Assembly: GCF_000014585.1 (NCBI RefSeq)
Contig: NC_008319.1
Location: 2,480,001 to 2,544,000, forward strand
Length of the DNA: 64,000 nucleotides
Reading direction: 5' to 3'
From: Synechococcus sp. CC9311
GTDB lineage: Bacteria > Cyanobacteriota > Cyanobacteriia > PCC-6307 > Cyanobiaceae
In this document: positions 2,999 to 10,908 of the stretch, one piece after another
Layout: the number at the start of each line of letters is the position of its first letter
Numbering within the stretch: the first letter of the stretch is position 1
Notes under the pieces: generated by a model
The model's input: only the letters and a program-made list of their open reading frames with translations
Database searches by the model: none
Told to the model about the DNA's origin: nothing
Made by a program: the position numbers and the translations under genes

Positions 2999-3898
2999 AT
3001 GTCTATTCTGACGATAAAGCTCCTACTCATAGCATTTACTGGAGTAATCGCTGGATGCAACAACAATCAATCAAAAAGTATTGAATCCAGTAACGAATCA
3101 AGGCTTACGAAAAACACGGTGAAAGATTGCGCGGGTGAGCATTCCGCAGAGGCAAAACTCCGAACAGTTTCCATTGTCCCTCAATTCTCCGCCTCAAGAA
3201 TTCATTCTGATTACTGGCCTCTTCTTACAGAAATAGGGAAACGCACAAATATATGCTTCAAGCTCGATCAACAAAAATCAATTCCATCATTTGAAGTAGG
3301 GCTCAAATCGGGGGCTTACGATTATGCCTTTATGAACCCATACCATCAGGTGATGGTAAGCGATATCTATCAACCTATCATTAGGGACAAGCAACGTTTG
3401 CTCACAGGGATCATTGTGACCAACAAAGGGAGCAATATTAATTCCGTACAACAAATCAATGGACGCACATTGTTGCTTCCGGCACCCAATGCATTTGGCG
3501 CATCACTACTGACACGAGCATACCTTGACAAAAAGAATATCAAGTTCAATCCAAAATACGTCAAAACGCATCAAAATGTTTATCGCGGGGTCGCTCGAGA
3601 TTCAGAGCTTATTGGAGGCGGGGTCAACAACACATTCAACCGCGAAAGCGACGAGCTTCGCTCCAATCTATCTATCTTGGTTGAGACCCCTGGGTACCCG
3701 GCTCATCCCTTTTCAGCACTGAAAGAACTACCACCTGAAGAGATTAAAAATGTTCAAAATGCGTGGATCATGATTGCAAAAGATTCCAATTCAAAAGATC
3801 TATTTAGGCAAGTTCAGATAAAAATCCCTATCAAGGCTAACTACAATCAAGATTACGCCCCACTTAAAAATCTTAGACTTGAAAAATACGTGCAGTGA
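2999..3898 (+). CDS. PhnD-like phosphate/phosphonate-type binding lipoprotein
   Basis: The 299-residue product has a short hydrophobic signal with a lipobox-like IAGC near residue 20. It then shows the PhnD/phosphonate-binding pattern: a fluxional start (RTVSIVPQF), the block DYAFMNPYHQ near residues 102-111, a segment like LLTGIIVTNKGSNI, and NGRTLLLPAPNAFGAS near 154-169. Such proteins bind phosphonates, phosphite or related oxyanions in the periplasm. No phnC/phnE transporter genes are next to it. Its TGA overlaps the GTG start of a membrane GGDEF-EAL protein (GTGA), so it more likely works as the ligand-sensing subunit of that c-di-GMP enzyme than as a transporter part; that role is inference. 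The DNA is A/T-rich compared with the housekeeping genes further along. Confidence 0.8.
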   Translation: MSILTIKLLLIAFTGVIAGCNNNQSKSIESSNESRLTKNTVKDCAGEHSAEAKLRTVSIVPQFSASRIHSDYWPLLTEIGKRTNICFKLDQQKSIPSFEVGLKSGAYDYAFMNPYHQVMVSDIYQPIIRDKQRLLTGIIVTNKGSNINSVQQINGRTLLLPAPNAFGASLLTRAYLDKKNIKFNPKYVKTHQNVYRGVARDSELIGGGVNNTFNRESDELRSNLSILVETPGYPAHPFSALKELPPEEIKNVQNAWIMIAKDSNSKDLFRQVQIKIPIKANYNQDYAPLKNLRLEKYVQ

Positions 3899-6279
3899 AC
3901 TTGAACTTGAAAAAAATATTTAATGTTAAAAAAGCAGTATTTGTCTTCCGCCACAACGCTGTTCCACTGACACTGATGGCATCCTGCGGCCTTATTGCTC
4001 TATTCGGAGCAGACCGATGGATTCTTCGAAATCTAGAAGAACAAAGAAATCTTAATTTCAAGCAATCAATCAGCAGAATTGCATTACAACTTAGCGAAAA
4101 TATCCTACTTGAAAACTACAATAATATTGATACACTTCTCCTGCGAATTCTTGATGAAGACCTTCATGTGACATGCCTGTTGGTTTCGGGTAACAACGGG
4201 AAAATATTGTCAATTGCAAGTCGTGAGCAGCCGGGTGCTACTGCATCCATTAAATATGGAAAACCCCCAAAAAAATGTCAAGCTAGCAGACAAGAGCCAA
4301 ATAACAAATCAATTTATAATGGAAATTTTTACGCAGAAAGAAGAATCGAAAACAACAATCTACCTCTTGGATTTGTAAGAGGACATGCAGTCAATGACGA
4401 GAATGACTTGGCACTAATTCGCACAATTGAGATTATTCTCTTTGGTGCATTTGGAGTTGCCTTTCTACCGGCTTTTGGATTACTTAGCTGGTCGAGCCTC
4501 CGTCAACTAGAGATAGAGCAAGAAAAGACTGCACGAGTGTCAGGGTTAATTAAGCAGCTTCAGGAAGCCCAAGGTCGAACATATGCTGCTTTTGAAGGAA
4601 CCAATGACGGCTGGATTGAATGGAATCTACAAACAAATCAATGCTTGCCATCACTTAAGATGAGACGACTATTAGGCATATACAAATATCACAGAATTGC
4701 GCAAAGAGCCGATCATTCACTAAGCGAAAACTGGAAATATTTTATCATCAAACAAGATTATAAAAAATTTCATTTTTTCCTGGATAACATCAGACAAAAA
4801 ACTGGTAGAGCTCACTTACCCAAAGTATCTGGAATCGAGGTACGCATTAAACCAATCGGTTCAACAAAAATTCAAACCCTGAAGGTTGAAGCGGTAGTCA
4901 CAAAAAATGTCAACAACCAGCCTTCAGTGATAGCTCTTGTTGCGAATAATATTACACGCGCAAAGGAACAACAACAGAGAATCAATCATCTCGCTTTTTA
5001 TGACACTCTAACAGGCCTTCGAAATCGATTCTCCTTTGAGGAAGAACTCAAAAATGCTGTAAATGGCCTCAATAGAAATGAATATCGCTTGGCAATATTT
5101 GCTATTGATATTGATAATTTTAAATTCTTAAATGACTCTCATGGGCATGCGGCAGGTGATCAATTTCTAATCCAGGTTGCCAACCGAATCAAATCTTGCT
5201 TACGAGCCAATGACTTTGTAGCTCGTCTTGGAGGGGATGAATTCGTCATCATTTTTAGACTTCCGTACAAAAGCAACAGCGAGATAGAAACCCTGACCAC
5301 ATCAATAGCGGGAAAGCTCCTAGCCAAATTATCAAATGCCTTTAGCCTCAAAAATTGTACTGTTTACAATACCTGCAGCATTGGAATTTGCATCGCCAAT
5401 GCTGGATCTAAGTCTACAGCAACATTATTAGACAAAGCTGACATAGCCCTATACAAAGCCAAAGAAATAGGGCGCAATTGTTTCTATATATATCAAGCGG
5501 GAATGGCATCAGCTCTTATTTCAAAAGCGACTACCGCAGAAAGACTCAGAACATTCATTGACGCAGGCGAAAGTGGGCTTTGCTTACAGCCAATCGTAAG
5601 ACTAGACACCAATTACTCTTTAAATAACAAAGGACAACAACGGATCGCTGGATATGAAGCCCTTTTTCGCTGCCCACGCCTTAAAAAAAGCATTCAATAC
5701 TTAATATCATGCGCAGAAGAAGCAGGCATTATTAATTCCATTACAGAGTCAATACTCGACGGAATCAAAGATGAATTAAGCAAAATACATCGCAACAAAA
5801 ATGCTTACATATCGATAAACATAAGTCCTATCCAGTTTTTAGAAAACAAATTCCCCTCAAAATTCTTGAGCCAGCTTCGCCATAGAGACATTAATCCCAA
5901 AAGAATCTGCATAGAAATAACAGAAACCGCCGTCCTAGAAGACACTAATTGCGCGCTAAATCATATTACTTCATTGCAAAAGGAGGGAATTCGCTTCTCT
6001 CTAGATGATTTCGGCACTGGCTATGCTTCAATCGAACTCCTCAGAAAGCTGCCATTTACCTATTTAAAAATAGATAGATCCTACATCCAAAATATCCATC
6101 AAGAATCAGAGATCAAGCTCGTCAAATCTATTATCAGCATGGCCAAAGCGTTTGACATGGAACTCATAGGAGAAGGGGTAGAAACTATCGGACAAAAAAC
6201 CATCCTTGAATCCCTTGGCTGTGAATATGCCCAAGGATTTTTGTTTAACAAAGATGGCAGTTACAACCATGTCAGTTAA
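3895..6279 (+). CDS. Membrane PAS-like/GGDEF/EAL c-di-GMP turnover protein
   Basis: This 794-residue protein starts at a GTG overlapping the previous stop. A membrane segment (about residues 21-44), a periplasmic stretch (about 45-172) and a second membrane segment (about 175-200) are followed by a PAS-like region (about 228-355), a GGDEF domain (about 365-535) and an EAL domain (about 545-790). GGDEF is intact at 446-450, with a RAND inhibitory site (RxxD) five residues upstream. The EAL side also keeps its catalytic residues: EAL at 588-590, NISP, EITE, DDFGTGYAS, KID and GEGVE. Both cyclase and phosphodiesterase activities therefore look possible. The upstream PhnD-like lipoprotein probably talks to the periplasmic stretch. 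c-di-GMP proteins are uncommon in marine picocyanobacteria, and the low G+C look suggests transfer. Confidence 0.88.
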   Translation: MNLNLKKIFNVKKAVFVFRHNAVPLTLMASCGLIALFGADRWILRNLEEQRNLNFKQSISRIALQLSENILLENYNNIDTLLLRILDEDLHVTCLLVSGNNGKILSIASREQPGATASIKYGKPPKKCQASRQEPNNKSIYNGNFYAERRIENNNLPLGFVRGHAVNDENDLALIRTIEIILFGAFGVAFLPAFGLLSWSSLRQLEIEQEKTARVSGLIKQLQEAQGRTYAAFEGTNDGWIEWNLQTNQCLPSLKMRRLLGIYKYHRIAQRADHSLSENWKYFIIKQDYKKFHFFLDNIRQKTGRAHLPKVSGIEVRIKPIGSTKIQTLKVEAVVTKNVNNQPSVIALVANNITRAKEQQQRINHLAFYDTLTGLRNRFSFEEELKNAVNGLNRNEYRLAIFAIDIDNFKFLNDSHGHAAGDQFLIQVANRIKSCLRANDFVARLGGDEFVIIFRLPYKSNSEIETLTTSIAGKLLAKLSNAFSLKNCTVYNTCSIGICIANAGSKSTATLLDKADIALYKAKEIGRNCFYIYQAGMASALISKATTAERLRTFIDAGESGLCLQPIVRLDTNYSLNNKGQQRIAGYEALFRCPRLKKSIQYLISCAEEAGIINSITESILDGIKDELSKIHRNKNAYISINISPIQFLENKFPSKFLSQLRHRDINPKRICIEITETAVLEDTNCALNHITSLQKEGIRFSLDDFGTGYASIELLRKLPFTYLKIDRSYIQNIHQESEIKLVKSIISMAKAFDMELIGEGVETIGQKTILESLGCEYAQGFLFNKDGSYNHVS

Positions 6280-6343: not shown

Positions 6344-6966
6344 TTTTAGTTGCTAACTCTGCCCGCGCCTGCTCCTCTGCAAGGTTGGGATTGGCCCATA
6401 GGCCGGGGAAGCCCTTGATCTCCTTCTTGGGCTTGGCGATGTTTTTCTCTAGGCGGGCCTGAAGTGCTTCCAGATCAACCAGGCCTTCGATGGGCAGCAA
6501 CAGGGGCAGCCTCGGCGTCCGCTGGTGTCGTCAACTAGACGGATTCCGCTCGATTCAAAGACGTGATATCAGACGTACCTTGCCCAAAAAGTCCCACCAG
6601 AGCTGGGTGGTCAGTCACGAATCGCACGGGTAACGATTGGGATAGTTTTAAACCCGCAACGGCTCGCAAAGGACGCTTCCAATTCATCATCCAAAGCAAC
6701 CTCGTCCACAACTGACCAAGATTGAAGTACCAAGAAAATGGTTTCGCTCTCCGCGGTAACGCTGTGCCAAAACTCCTCTGGGAGGTGCGTCATCAGGGGA
6801 TACAGCATCAGAGGCATTGGACTGATCACTGTTGCCAGCACCCTCCCGCACTAGAGCGCAGCGAAGGCCGTCGGTGCCATAGCTCAATCAAAAGCAGCGG
6901 ATCAATACCAAACCAGCGCTCTTGCTCATCTTGCGATTCTGCCCGTCCCGAACCAACCCGTGGATG
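6344..6966 (-). pseudogene. Decayed partial duplicate of valS (3' half)
   Basis: Read on the minus strand, this stretch repeats scattered pieces of the valyl-tRNA synthetase encoded at 8164-10908. They include [18 protein letters not shown] with the KMSKS signature, YGTDGLRCALVRE, LMLYPLMTHLPEEFWHSVTAE and part of the C-terminal coiled coil. Order and strand match the intact gene. At least two internal deletions are visible: roughly the DNA matching 8810-9205 is missing near 6840, and about 60 bases matching 8600-8640 are missing near 6670. Frameshifts break the rest, so no long frame survives. It is a dead remnant, not a gene; an MscS gene sits between it and the intact copy. Boundaries are by eye and may be off by tens of bases. 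Confidence 0.85.
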
Positions 6967-7079: not shown

Positions 7080-8153
7080 ATGAAAGAAAGGATCATTCAA
7101 GACGTGGATTGGATCCACTCCAACTCCGGGGTATTGATTGGTACTGCCGTTCTGGTAGCGCTCTGGCTTGTCCTTGGGCTCATGGAGCGGAAAGGACAAA
7201 ATATTGGCGGGATCATCGCTAAAGCAATCCGTCAGCCATTGCTCCTAGGGCTCAGCACCTCTCTTTACTTGGGCTGGCTCGGACGCCAAATCGCCAACAA
7301 TGTGGAGTGGCTGGATGGCAGCAATGCTTTAAAGCTCTCCGCCACAATCACGATCCTCGCCGTCACGTGGGCGGTGAGCCGATTGGGCCACGCCGTCATG
7401 GAGACCAGACGTTTTGAGCGATGGCTCCAGATGGACGACCCCAAAGATCGAGCAATGGCCATCAGCTTTATCGGCCGCATCTATACGATCTTGATTCTGT
7501 TGATTGGCGCTAGCGCCTTGATGCTCACCTTCGGGGTTCCCGCCACAGCACTCGCGGCTCTAGGAGGAGGCGCGGGAGTTGGACTGGCCTTCGGGACGCA
7601 AAACATCTCCCAAAACTTCTTCTCCGGCTTCATGCTGTTCTTTAACCGTCCCTTTAAGGAGGGGGACTGGATCAGTACGGACGGAATGGAAGGAACCGTT
7701 GAAAATATCGGCTGGTATCACACACGGCTACGCACATTTGAGCGGCGACCAATGTATATCCCCAATGCAGTATTTGCAACGAACAGCATCGTCAATCCCG
7801 GGCAAATGTATAACCGCCGGATCCTGGCAAATATTGGCTTGCGCTACGAAGACATCCCCGCCATGGATGCTATTACGAAGCAAGTGCGAGAACTCCTGAA
7901 AAACCACAACGCGATTGACAATGATCAAATCATCCTGGTGCATTTTAATGCATGGGAGAGTTCATCACTCAATCTTCAGGTTTATTGCTTCACTAAAACC
8001 ACAAACTGGCAAGACTACTTAGACATTCAGCAGGAAATATTTCTGGAGATTGCAAAAATTGTAAAGGCCAACAATGCCGACTTTGCTTTCGATTGCACCA
8101 CCCTCTATCCAGCACCCAATTTAAAACCAGAGCAGCTATTCCCCTCGGCCTGA
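7080..8153 (+). CDS. MscS-family mechanosensitive channel protein
   Basis: The 357-residue product has four to five hydrophobic segments in the first ~165 residues. Then comes the MscS pore helix (ALGGGAGVGLAFG, about 160-172), the block NFFSGFMLFFNRPFKEGDW and a beta domain with RRPMYIPNAVFATNSIVNPG. This is the canonical MscS signature, more so than the paralogue at 1305-2579. It would open under membrane tension and protect against osmotic downshock. It starts just after the valS remnant. It is convergent with the intact valS, whose stop is only 10 bases away, leaving no room for a conventional terminator between them. Its placement between the two valS copies suggests it was carried along in the rearrangement that made the duplicate. 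Confidence 0.88.
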   Translation: MKERIIQDVDWIHSNSGVLIGTAVLVALWLVLGLMERKGQNIGGIIAKAIRQPLLLGLSTSLYLGWLGRQIANNVEWLDGSNALKLSATITILAVTWAVSRLGHAVMETRRFERWLQMDDPKDRAMAISFIGRIYTILILLIGASALMLTFGVPATALAALGGGAGVGLAFGTQNISQNFFSGFMLFFNRPFKEGDWISTDGMEGTVENIGWYHTRLRTFERRPMYIPNAVFATNSIVNPGQMYNRRILANIGLRYEDIPAMDAITKQVRELLKNHNAIDNDQIILVHFNAWESSSLNLQVYCFTKTTNWQDYLDIQQEIFLEIAKIVKANNADFAFDCTTLYPAPNLKPEQLFPSA

Positions 8154-8163
8154 TAGCCACTAT

Positions 8164-10908
8164 TCATCCCAAATCCGCCAGCCGTCTGCGCGCAAGGTCC
8201 GCCTGAGCCTCTGCTTCAGCAAGCTTGACCTTGCATTCAGCGACCACATCCGCTGGTGCCTTATCCGCAAAGTTCGGATTACTGAGGCGTCCCGCCAATC
8301 CCTTGATCTCCTTCTCCGCTTTGGTGATGTCTTTTTCAAGACGGCCCTGAAGCGCTTCAAGGTCAACCAAGCCTTCGATGGGCAGCAACACCTGCAACTC
8401 ACCGCTTACACCAGCGAGTGCTTTCGCAACAGGAGCCGCCTCGGCCTGCGCCTGCGTCATTAACTCAACAGATTCAGCTCGAGTGAGCGCAGTGATATCA
8501 GCCGTACCTTGCTCCAACACTGCCATCAAATCAGGGCGGCTCGTCACGAAACGAACGGGGACCGATTGGGACGGCTTCAAACCCGCAACGGCTCGCAAAT
8601 TTCGGACCACTCGAATCGCAGCAATCAGCTCGGAGAAAGACGCTTCCAAACCATCATCCAAAGCACCCTCGTCTATGGAGGGCCAAGGCTGAAGGGCTAA
8701 GAACGTGATTTCGGGCTCAGCAGTCACGCTGTGCCACAGCTCTTCGGTGAGATGGGGCATCAATGGATGCAACATCAAATGCATTTGGCTGATCACCTTC
8801 GCCAGCACTTGCTTGGCCGTGTGCTGATCCGCCAAGGCAGCAGCGCTGGGTTCCTCTCCTGGATTTAAACGACGCTTGCTCAGTTCCAAGTACCAGTCAC
8901 AAACATCATTCCAAGCGAATTCATACAGCCCCTTAGCGGCTTCACCAAGGGCATAACTGCTGTATCGCCCTGCCGTTTCCTGATTCACGCGCGCCAAGCG
9001 CGACAAAATCCAACGGTCGGCGAGCCGTAACGCGGAAACCTCTGGCTCCCCCAGCTCTGCTGGTGTGGCCCCACCCAGATTCATCAGGGCGAAGCGGGTG
9101 GCATTCCAAAGCTTGTTCGCGAAGTTTCGAGAGGCCTCAACCGTGGCAGATGTGTCCTTTTTACGGTCGTAATCAAGGCGAATGTCCTGGCCAGCACCGG
9201 CCACCTCGCGCACCAGAGCAAAACGCAGAGCATCGGTGCCATAGCGCTCAATCAACAACAGGGGATCGATCCCGTTACCGGCGCTTTTGCTCATCTTGCG
9301 GTTCTGCTCATCCCGCACCAGCCCATGGATATAGACGTCCTGAAAAGGCATCTCACCGGTGAAAGCACCGGCCATCATTGTCATCCTGGCGACCCAGAAA
9401 AAGATGATGTCAAAGCCTGTAATCAAGGTGCTAGTGGGGTACCAACGCTGAAGGTCAGCGGCATTCGCATCGGGCCAACCCAGGGTTGAAAACGGCCAAA
9501 GCCCACTCGAAAACCAGGTGTCGAGCACGTCTTCATCCTGCTCAATGCGGGCCTCAGCTCCAAACTGCTCTTGGGCTTTCGCCAGCGCTTCAGCCTCGTC
9601 CCTAGCCACCACATAAGGCGTGGTGTCGGTGTATTTGCCGCCGGTTTCACTAATGACAAACCAGGCGGGGATGCGATGGCCCCACCACAGCTGTCGACTG
9701 ATGCACCAGTCGCGAATATCTGTAAGCCAATCGCGGTAGACCTTTTCCCAGCGCTCGGGAATAAAGCGGGGATCCTGTTGAGCCAGTGCTTCTCGACAGC
9801 GAGCAGCGAGAGGCTCAGTCTTGATAAACCACTGGGTGGAGAGCAGGGGCTCTACCGGCACCTTGCCCCGATCGGAGTGGGGAACGCTGTGCCGGTAGTC
9901 CTCCACCTTGACCAACAAGCCGTCTTCATCAAGGGCTGCCACCACAGCCTTACGCGCCTCAAAGCGATCCAAGCCTTCGAAGCGCCCGGCCTCGGCATTC
10001 ATCGTGCCGTTCTTGCGCATCACCGTGATCTGAGCCAGACCGTGACGCTGCCCAATGGCGAAGTCATTGGGGTCATGAGCTGGTGTGACCTTGACGCAGC
10101 CAGTGCCGAACGCCTTCTCCACGTGATCGTCGGCAACGATCGGGATCTGACGGCCCGTAAAAGGGAGGTCAAGGGTCTGACCCACTAGATGGGCATAGCG
10201 CTCATCGCTGGGGTTCACCGCCACTGCTGTATCACCGAGCATGGTTTCTGGCCGCGTGGTGGCCACCTCGAGATGGCCCTCACCACTGCTGAGGGGATAG
10301 CGGAAATGCCAGAGATGGCCATCCACCTCCTTCATCTCCACCTCGAGGTCACTCACCGCGGAGCCCGAAGCAGGACACCAATTCACCAGATATTCACCGC
10401 GATAGATGAGGCCCTGCTCATGCAGACGAACGAAGGCCTCTTTCACTGCCTCGCTCAATCCCTCATCCAACGTGAATCGTTGGCGCTGCCAGTCGACGGA
10501 ATACCCCAACCGACGTAACTGATCGACAATGCGACCTCCACTTTCTGCTTTCCACTGCCAGGCCCGCTCCAAAAAGGCCTCGCGGCCAAGGTCATGGCGC
10601 GTCTTGCCCTCCTCCTTGAGCTGCTTCTCAAGAATGGTTTGCACTGCAATCGACGCGTGATCAGTACCAGGCAGGCAAAGCACGTTTTTGCCAGCCAAAC
10701 GTTGGTAGCGCACGATCGTATCGATCAGAGCCGTATTAAAGGCATGCCCCATGTGCAAGCTGCCGGTGACATTGGGCGGCGGGATCACCACAGCAAAAGG
10801 TTCGCCCTCAGCCGCAGGATCGGGATGAAAGGCCCCCTCGTCCTCCCAGGCCTTCTGCCATCTGGCTTCCGTACCAACCGAGTCATAGGTCTTGGCCAGA
10901 TCCGACAC
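8164..10908 (-). CDS. valS: Valyl-tRNA synthetase
   Basis: The 914-residue class I synthetase charges tRNA-Val in the cytoplasm. The HIGH-type motif appears in [15 protein letters not shown] (about residues 48-62). The editing domain contains [22 protein letters not shown] lies in [10 protein letters not shown] near residue 537. The anticodon-binding region includes [15 protein letters not shown], and the C-terminal coiled coil closes the protein ([20 protein letters not shown]). Length is normal for bacterial ValRS. It reads toward the MscS gene at 7080-8153. A decayed partial copy lies beyond that gene at 6344-6966. tRNA-Val(UAC) is in the same window at 18375. Confidence 0.98.

Follow-up and report, generated by a model that had tools for sequence, protein, structure and literature searches.

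A PhnD-fold lipoprotein gene and an overlapping membrane GGDEF-EAL receptor gene in Synechococcus sp. CC9311: a probable bipartite sensor

The window, a stretch of 64,000 nucleotides from Synechococcus sp. CC9311 (NC_008319.1, positions 2,480,001 to 2,544,000 of the forward strand), carries at positions 2999-6279 two overlapping genes, which encode a PhnD-fold solute-binding lipoprotein and a membrane receptor with GGDEF and EAL domains. The two gene products very probably form a bipartite transmembrane sensor, in which the lipoprotein would dock on the periplasmic domain of the receptor and set the turnover of cyclic di-GMP (c-di-GMP).

The gene pair and its products

The features of the pair outside the ligand pocket were as follows, with the basis of each assignment in brackets.

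2999-3898, + strand: PhnD-fold (PF12974) solute-binding lipoprotein, 299 amino acids, ATG start (open reading frame (ORF) list, Pfam, structure model)
3047-3058, + strand: lipobox IAGC, residues 17-20, ending at Cys20 (motif)
3895-3898, + strand: GTGA, four-base overlap between the lipoprotein and receptor genes (sequence)
3895-6279, + strand: membrane receptor with GGDEF and EAL domains, 794 amino acids, GTG start (ORF list, Pfam, motifs)
4021-4419, + strand: periplasmic domain, about residues 43-175, PAS/cache-like predicted fold (hydrophobicity, structure model)
4489-4992, + strand: cytoplasmic linker, residues 199-366, without a match in Pfam and PAS-like by eye only (Pfam)
4993-5478, + strand: GGDEF domain with RxxD inhibitory site, RAND (Pfam, motifs)
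5539-6252, + strand: EAL domain with the expected motifs (Pfam, motifs)

The lipoprotein matched PF12974 with 135 bits (cut-off 27), and missed the cut-offs of both the NCBIfam PhnD equivalog TIGR03431 (33.1 bits versus 261.1) and the wider subfamily TIGR01098 (45.4 bits versus 112). Its predicted structure (predicted local distance difference test score, pLDDT, 88.9) matched PtxB, ArrX, PhnD and XAC2383. In VIA-align, XAC2383 was the top row (Z 24.5, root-mean-square deviation (rmsd) 2.7, 246 aligned), tied with HtxB (Z 23.7) and followed by ArrX (Z 22.8), and Foldseek placed PtxB first. By sequence, the closest solved relatives were ArrX (E 6.5e-20), PtxB and AioX when the subfamily profile was used, and PtxB, then ArrX, when the single lipoprotein sequence was used. 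Because the profile barely detected the sequence of XAC2383 (E 1.1 across 26 residues), the lipoprotein looks like a member of a subfamily other than that of XAC2383. The genome's other PF12974 protein matched MITS9220 PhnD1 of marine Synechococcus (E 1.5e-145) and its gene is followed by an ATP-binding cassette (ABC) ATPase gene; an ordinary phosphate-type binding protein is therefore present besides the lipoprotein of the window. The PhnD1 match also agrees with the marine picocyanobacterium named as the source in the initial annotation.

Hydrophobic segments at residues 21-39 and 180-198 of the receptor flank its periplasmic stretch, close to residues 45-172, where the initial annotation had placed it. 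Pfam scored the GGDEF domain at 153 bits and the EAL domain at 178 bits. The motif reading recovered RAND at 437-440, GGDEF at 446-450 and the EAL, N, E, DD, K, E and Q motifs, the EAL-domain residues among them being those assigned as catalytic. The motifs are thus intact, as had been noted, and the four-base overlap of the genes reported earlier was also recovered (2999-3898, 3895-6279).

The model of the receptor N-terminus (pLDDT 81.7) has a PAS/cache-like domain between two long helices. Its best structural rows ran from Z 11.6 to about 10.5 and were mostly cache-type sensor domains, with the domain of the LapD-like protein CdgS9 among them (Z 10.9, rmsd 3.5, 120 aligned). The periplasmic output domain of CdgS9 was Foldseek rank 1 and, at E 2.5e-4, the only PDB sequence match of the receptor-domain profile below E 0.1. 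Among 20 receptor domains compared with Pfam, CHASE8 (PF17152) matched five at E up to 1 (best 8e-4), that of the window not being one of them, and SMP_2 (PF10144) matched two (best 1e-5), exceeding its cut-off in L055.

Co-inheritance of the lipoprotein and the receptor domain

Three hundred genomes of the family were searched with the lipoprotein at E up to 1e-5 and with a profile of the receptor N-terminal domain built from 28 sequences; in the profile search the best 10 first-look candidates per genome were scored. The lipoprotein was present in 16 of the 300 genomes, that of the window included, at 17 loci. With the profile, 33 matches were listed, from 29 genomes. Of these, 17 were full-length (149-203 bits), and all 17 were at the 17 lipoprotein loci; the 16 others listed were partial and scored 38 bits or less. 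Within the family, lipoprotein and full-length domain are thus inherited one to one, although 12 of the 17 loci were in the profile and match by construction (L035, L036, L038, L041 and L042 were outside it), and weak domain relatives may have been missed with only 10 candidates scored per genome.

The two genes overlap, or the receptor ORF follows within 12 bases, at 15 of the 17 family loci; whether L034, L037, L038 and L041 show overlaps of 4 bases or more hinges on which start codon is taken. At L036 an insertion sequence (7304-8919; HTH_Tnp_1 and integrase-core ORFs, about 1.4 kb gap) separates the two genes, and in the Cyanobium locus L035 a TAG at about 8606, within the periplasmic domain, splits the receptor, which would reflect either a broken copy or a sequencing error.

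A wider scan comprised 43 entries, that is, 42 loci and the window, with L035 and L059 being the same Cyanobium contig and L022/L024 (again as L042) two pieces of one gene. The domain was found in the gene adjoining the lipoprotein in 42 of the 43 entries, 28 of which were in the profile, so that their match is again by construction. The initial annotation had proposed that lipoprotein and enzyme are coupled, a proposal that would fall if their homologues lay apart elsewhere; because they are co-located in 17/17 family loci and 42/43 wider entries, the coupling is supported. The distances between lipoproteins and between receptor domains correlated with r 0.85 over 37 pairs, and none of 5000 permutations reached this value (highest 0.29). 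The pairing is far beyond chance.

The outputs attached to the domain change from locus to locus. The 17 family loci comprise 4 GGDEF-EAL receptors, 11 with GGDEF alone (three run through Pfam, the other eight assigned by motif and phmmer), 1 hybrid kinase and 1 receptor cut by a contig end, and all three kinds occur within the genus of the window (L027, L029, L031). Another 24 loci, from titled genome records that were mostly betaproteobacterial by title, gave 8 GGDEF receptors (three confirmed by Pfam), 15 kinases (15/15 with Pfam kinase domains) and 1 cut receptor, L059 being identical with L035; in L065 the receptor ORF is broken by a frame change. Of 10 plasmid records, the two examined, both from Vibrionaceae, also have kinases beside the lipoprotein. 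In three betaproteobacterial loci (L045, L054 and L065) two further ORFs lie just upstream of the lipoprotein gene, with GGDEF-like and EAL-like matches of 43-59 bits; the output showed no intact GGDEF motif for them.

Profile comparison of the periplasmic domains from five receptor groups gave matches among all five. Pairs with the epsilon/Vibrio group, which together with that of the window was the weakest, reached down to 8e-8, and the other three pairs lay between 2e-22 and 2e-30. One lipoprotein and one domain conserved under changing outputs is the pattern expected of a ligand module with its docking site. Of 386 genomes of the phylum, 12 had a domain match at E 1e-6, comprising four loci already counted and eight weaker matches (31-49 bits); a PhnD-type gene lies directly upstream in five of the eight, and Pfam confirmed PF12974 in two of two tested.

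Besides the circularity of the two counts, several results speak against so close a pairing. For the other three of the eight weaker phylum matches, no such lipoprotein was found within the 1.5 kb examined. Domain matches were weak at L025 and L026 (22-24 bits) and at L060 (28 bits), and L051 gave no domain match beside its lipoprotein and kinase. The correlation of distances falls to 0.58 among 629 more distant pairs and in part reflects shared descent. The domain of the window is itself divergent and shares 10-36% identity with 26 of 27 relatives; Pfam gave no significant match to it or to the linker, and its group matched the other groups at E 7e-9 to 2.5e-5 with probabilities of 75-96% over 48-108 columns only. 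The kinase gene of L060 is upstream of the lipoprotein gene, and the histidine kinase of L051 (2013-4495) seems to have no periplasmic domain, by deletion or by an assembly fault.

The binding pocket and the ligand

Four features of the lipoprotein bear on its pocket, all from alignment.

3335-3346, + strand: NPYH, residues 113-116, near-invariant (N113 in 40/41, H116 in 40/41)
3482-3505, + strand: loop APNAFGAS, residues 162-169, in place of the STS anion-binding loop of PhnD1
3569-3571, + strand: His191 (His156 of PhnD1), the sole phosphate-shell residue kept, 41/41
3704-3706, + strand: His236, where PhnD1 has the capping Tyr204; His in 41/41

The phosphate shell of picocyanobacterial PhnD1 consists of Tyr44, Ser124-Thr125-Ser126, His156, Asp203 and Tyr204 (PMC10284923, in excerpt). 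This numbering was transferred by counting onto the genome's own PhnD1, via its alignment. The protein of the window has Ile95, Ala165-Phe166-Gly167, His191, Ala235 and His236 at these positions, so that one residue in seven is kept. The loss extends to the subfamily. In an alignment of 41 sequences (window included, L042 pieces and L059 excluded), Tyr44, Thr125, Ser126, Asp203 and Tyr204 were kept in none, Ser124 in three and His156 in all. The position of Tyr44 was Ile in 40/41, the STS positions were Ala (38/41), Phe (40/41) and Ala or Gly (41/41), and that of Asp203 was Pro, Ala or Ser.

The oxyanion ligands of AioX and ArrX are Tyr88, Cys106, Tyr131, Ser161, Ser163, His192 and Asp210 (PMC5908839, in excerpt). 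In a hand-read alignment of the subfamily profile with ArrX, the ligand His was kept, Cys106 became Asn113, Ser161 became Ala165, Ser163 became Gly167, Tyr88 became Ile95 and Asp210 became Asn210, the position of Tyr131 being uncertain. The STS anion loop was present in four of five PhnD-type proteins adjoining distantly related receptors elsewhere in the phylum. Since these sensor-side lipoproteins mostly retain it, loss of the loop is, on the alignments, a mark of the subfamily of the window lipoprotein and not of sensing as such.

A phosphorus ligand was accordingly dropped as the default on this pocket comparison with PhnD1, made on aligned positions, which give no proof of side-chain orientation. 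We put forward, tentatively, that a distinct subfamily of PhnD-fold lipoproteins may have traded phosphorus-oxyanion binding for another ligand, held by the invariant His191 and His236 and the near-invariant Asn113 and His116. The subfamily and a single docking domain would move together, as a ligand module, between cyanobacteria, betaproteobacteria and other groups, driving cyclases, cyclase-phosphodiesterases or kinases. If true, an unassigned environmental signal would be read by several unrelated outputs.

Proposed mechanism, known systems and genomic setting

In the proposed mechanism, the membrane-anchored PhnD-fold lipoprotein would close on a small ligand and, ligand-bound or free, dock on the PAS/cache-like periplasmic domain of a receptor dimer. 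The change would travel through the second transmembrane helix and the linker and shift the balance between diguanylate cyclase activity of the GGDEF domain and phosphodiesterase activity of the EAL domain, by analogy with NspS-MbaA. The sequences show the gene pair, its co-inheritance in the family, the exchange of outputs, the intact enzyme motifs and the lost phosphate shell; physical docking, ligand-dependent switching, the direction of the switch and the downstream target are inferred.

Three other explanations were weighed. The lipoprotein might sense phosphate, phosphite, phosphonate or another tetrahedral oxyanion and relay it to the enzyme, much as the initial annotation had it. Membership of PF12974, the nearest solved relatives ArrX, PtxB and AioX, the retained His191 and a structure of XAC2383 solved with ATP (PDB title) are in keeping with such a ligand, whereas Tyr44, the STS loop, Asp203 and Tyr204 are replaced across the 41 sequences, and the alignment with ArrX shows replacement of the ligand Cys, both ligand Ser residues and the first ligand Tyr known from ArrX and AioX. 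Because these pocket residues are replaced, and because the PhnD-like fold can hold quite different ligands (BstB binds sterols; PMC10942540, in excerpt), an oxyanion is considered unlikely. The same applies more narrowly to a simple phosphorus oxyanion bound in the manner of PhnD, and with the loop, the pocket Tyr and the Asp-Tyr cap replaced subfamily-wide, the phosphonate or oxyanion input proposed earlier is not supported.

It is scarcely credible that the lipoprotein instead serves an ABC transporter encoded elsewhere, its adjacency to an enzyme gene being incidental. Structural family members discussed in PMC5908839 (in excerpt), the AioX group apart, do belong to ABC transporters, and in this genome an ABC ATPase gene comes after that of the PhnD1-type protein, but all 17 family loci adjoin one receptor domain while the outputs change, and by profile no solved protein is closer than ArrX, a sensor. 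An orphan transport protein was rejected on this co-location with the receptor domain. Only slightly less improbable is a LapD-like inside-out receptor, whose cytoplasmic domains would read c-di-GMP and whose periplasmic domain would act on the lipoprotein. The sequence match and Foldseek rank of CdgS9 given above favour it; the GGDEF and EAL domains of LapD, however, are degenerate, whereas the motifs of the window receptor are intact, and the outputs of its relatives, a lone GGDEF domain or a kinase, fit outside-in signalling.

The bipartite sensor favoured here resembles systems already described. XAC2383 is said to prefer phosphate-containing ligands, and the study of XAC2383-XAC2382 reportedly described a membrane cyclase bearing a cache domain, physical interaction with that domain, and recombination with various outputs. 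That pair is on record through a paper title in the reference list of PMC10380989 (in excerpt) and through PDB titles for XAC2383. In both systems a PhnD-fold periplasmic protein is paired with a diguanylate cyclase, but the output of the window receptor also has an EAL domain, and its lipoprotein has no PhnD1 phosphate shell. With such a combination already in these titles, the claim of a new kind of input was overstated. The kind of sensor is known from NspS-MbaA and XAC2383-XAC2382, and most of the concept is reportedly in print.

NspS comes from another binding-protein family, and the partner of AioX and ArrX is a histidine kinase. In NspS-MbaA of Vibrio cholerae, NspS binds polyamines and its occupancy selects either cyclase or phosphodiesterase activity (PMC8967002, in excerpt). 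As proposed for the pair of the window, a periplasmic binding protein there controls a membrane-bound GGDEF-EAL enzyme, one able to pass from making the signal to degrading it; NspS differs as a polyamine binder. AioX and ArrX are likewise PhnD-like proteins devoted to sensing (PMC5908839, in excerpt), but their Tyr88, Cys106, Ser161 and Ser163 are not kept in the window lipoprotein, whose partner is a GGDEF-EAL protein, though its relatives use kinases. PhnD1 of marine Synechococcus shares the fold and the kind of organism (PMC10284923, in excerpt) and differs in serving transport and in having the whole phosphate shell.

The locus has the composition of a binding-protein-coupled c-di-GMP receptor: the gene of a binding protein adjoins that of a membrane GGDEF-EAL protein with a periplasmic domain, and the two are conserved together. 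In a review (PMC8846402, in excerpt), SBP_bac_3 was the only member of the binding-protein clan to have been studied in c-di-GMP networks, and XAC238 did not occur. A literature search, weak on subscription journals and covering in one part 25 of 1,117 papers, listed no title devoted to this pair in a picocyanobacterium. For c-di-GMP in marine Synechococcus it listed two reviews. What is new here, judged from sequence, is a lipoprotein subfamily that barely matches XAC2383, with a pocket unlike that of PhnD1, in a genus poor in c-di-GMP genes. For a genus with so few c-di-GMP enzymes, the pair represents a conserved input unit, and because kinases of other bacteria carry the same lipoprotein-domain unit, identifying one ligand could account for many systems. 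The pair also cautions against reading every PF12974 gene as phosphonate uptake.

The scarcity of c-di-GMP genes, stated in the initial annotation, was borne out, with 4 GGDEF and 3 EAL matches in the whole genome and a GGDEF match over the cut-off in 7 of 31 genomes of the genus. A profile search of the genome for c-di-GMP effectors found no PilZ and no ComFB match and one MshEN match (30.8 bits), in a T2SSE-type ATPase beside a GrpE gene. This setting has been described for PilB (PMC12288463, in excerpt), and by its gene setting the MshEN-bearing ATPase is PilB-like. Pilus assembly is therefore a possible target of the signal.

The lipoprotein and receptor genes have G+C contents of 42.0% and 39.1%, versus 52.8% for the window from 10909 onward, which suggests that the A+T-rich pair was acquired. 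A phage collection searched for the pair gave no match. The pair is flanked by a solute-binding protein-MscS gene pair and a second MscS gene, and no ABC permease or ATPase was found among the flanking genes scanned with Pfam. The first flanking pair consists of a binding-protein-like lipoprotein gene (37-1305, weak PF01547 match just below the cut-off) abutting a MscS/MscK-like channel gene (1305-2579). Homologues of this lipoprotein were found in 138 of 300 family genomes, and a channel homologue (40-100% identity) adjoined it in 30/30 fetched best-scoring loci. A literature search for this pair found nothing related; it may encode an MscS channel coupled to a ligand, of a type common in picocyanobacteria. 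A decayed copy of parts of valS (6409-6965), with 65-79% identity to the intact valS at 8164-10908, separates the GGDEF-EAL gene from the second MscS gene (7080-8153). With A+T-rich genes upstream of it, this copy resembles a scar left at valS by insertion or recombination.

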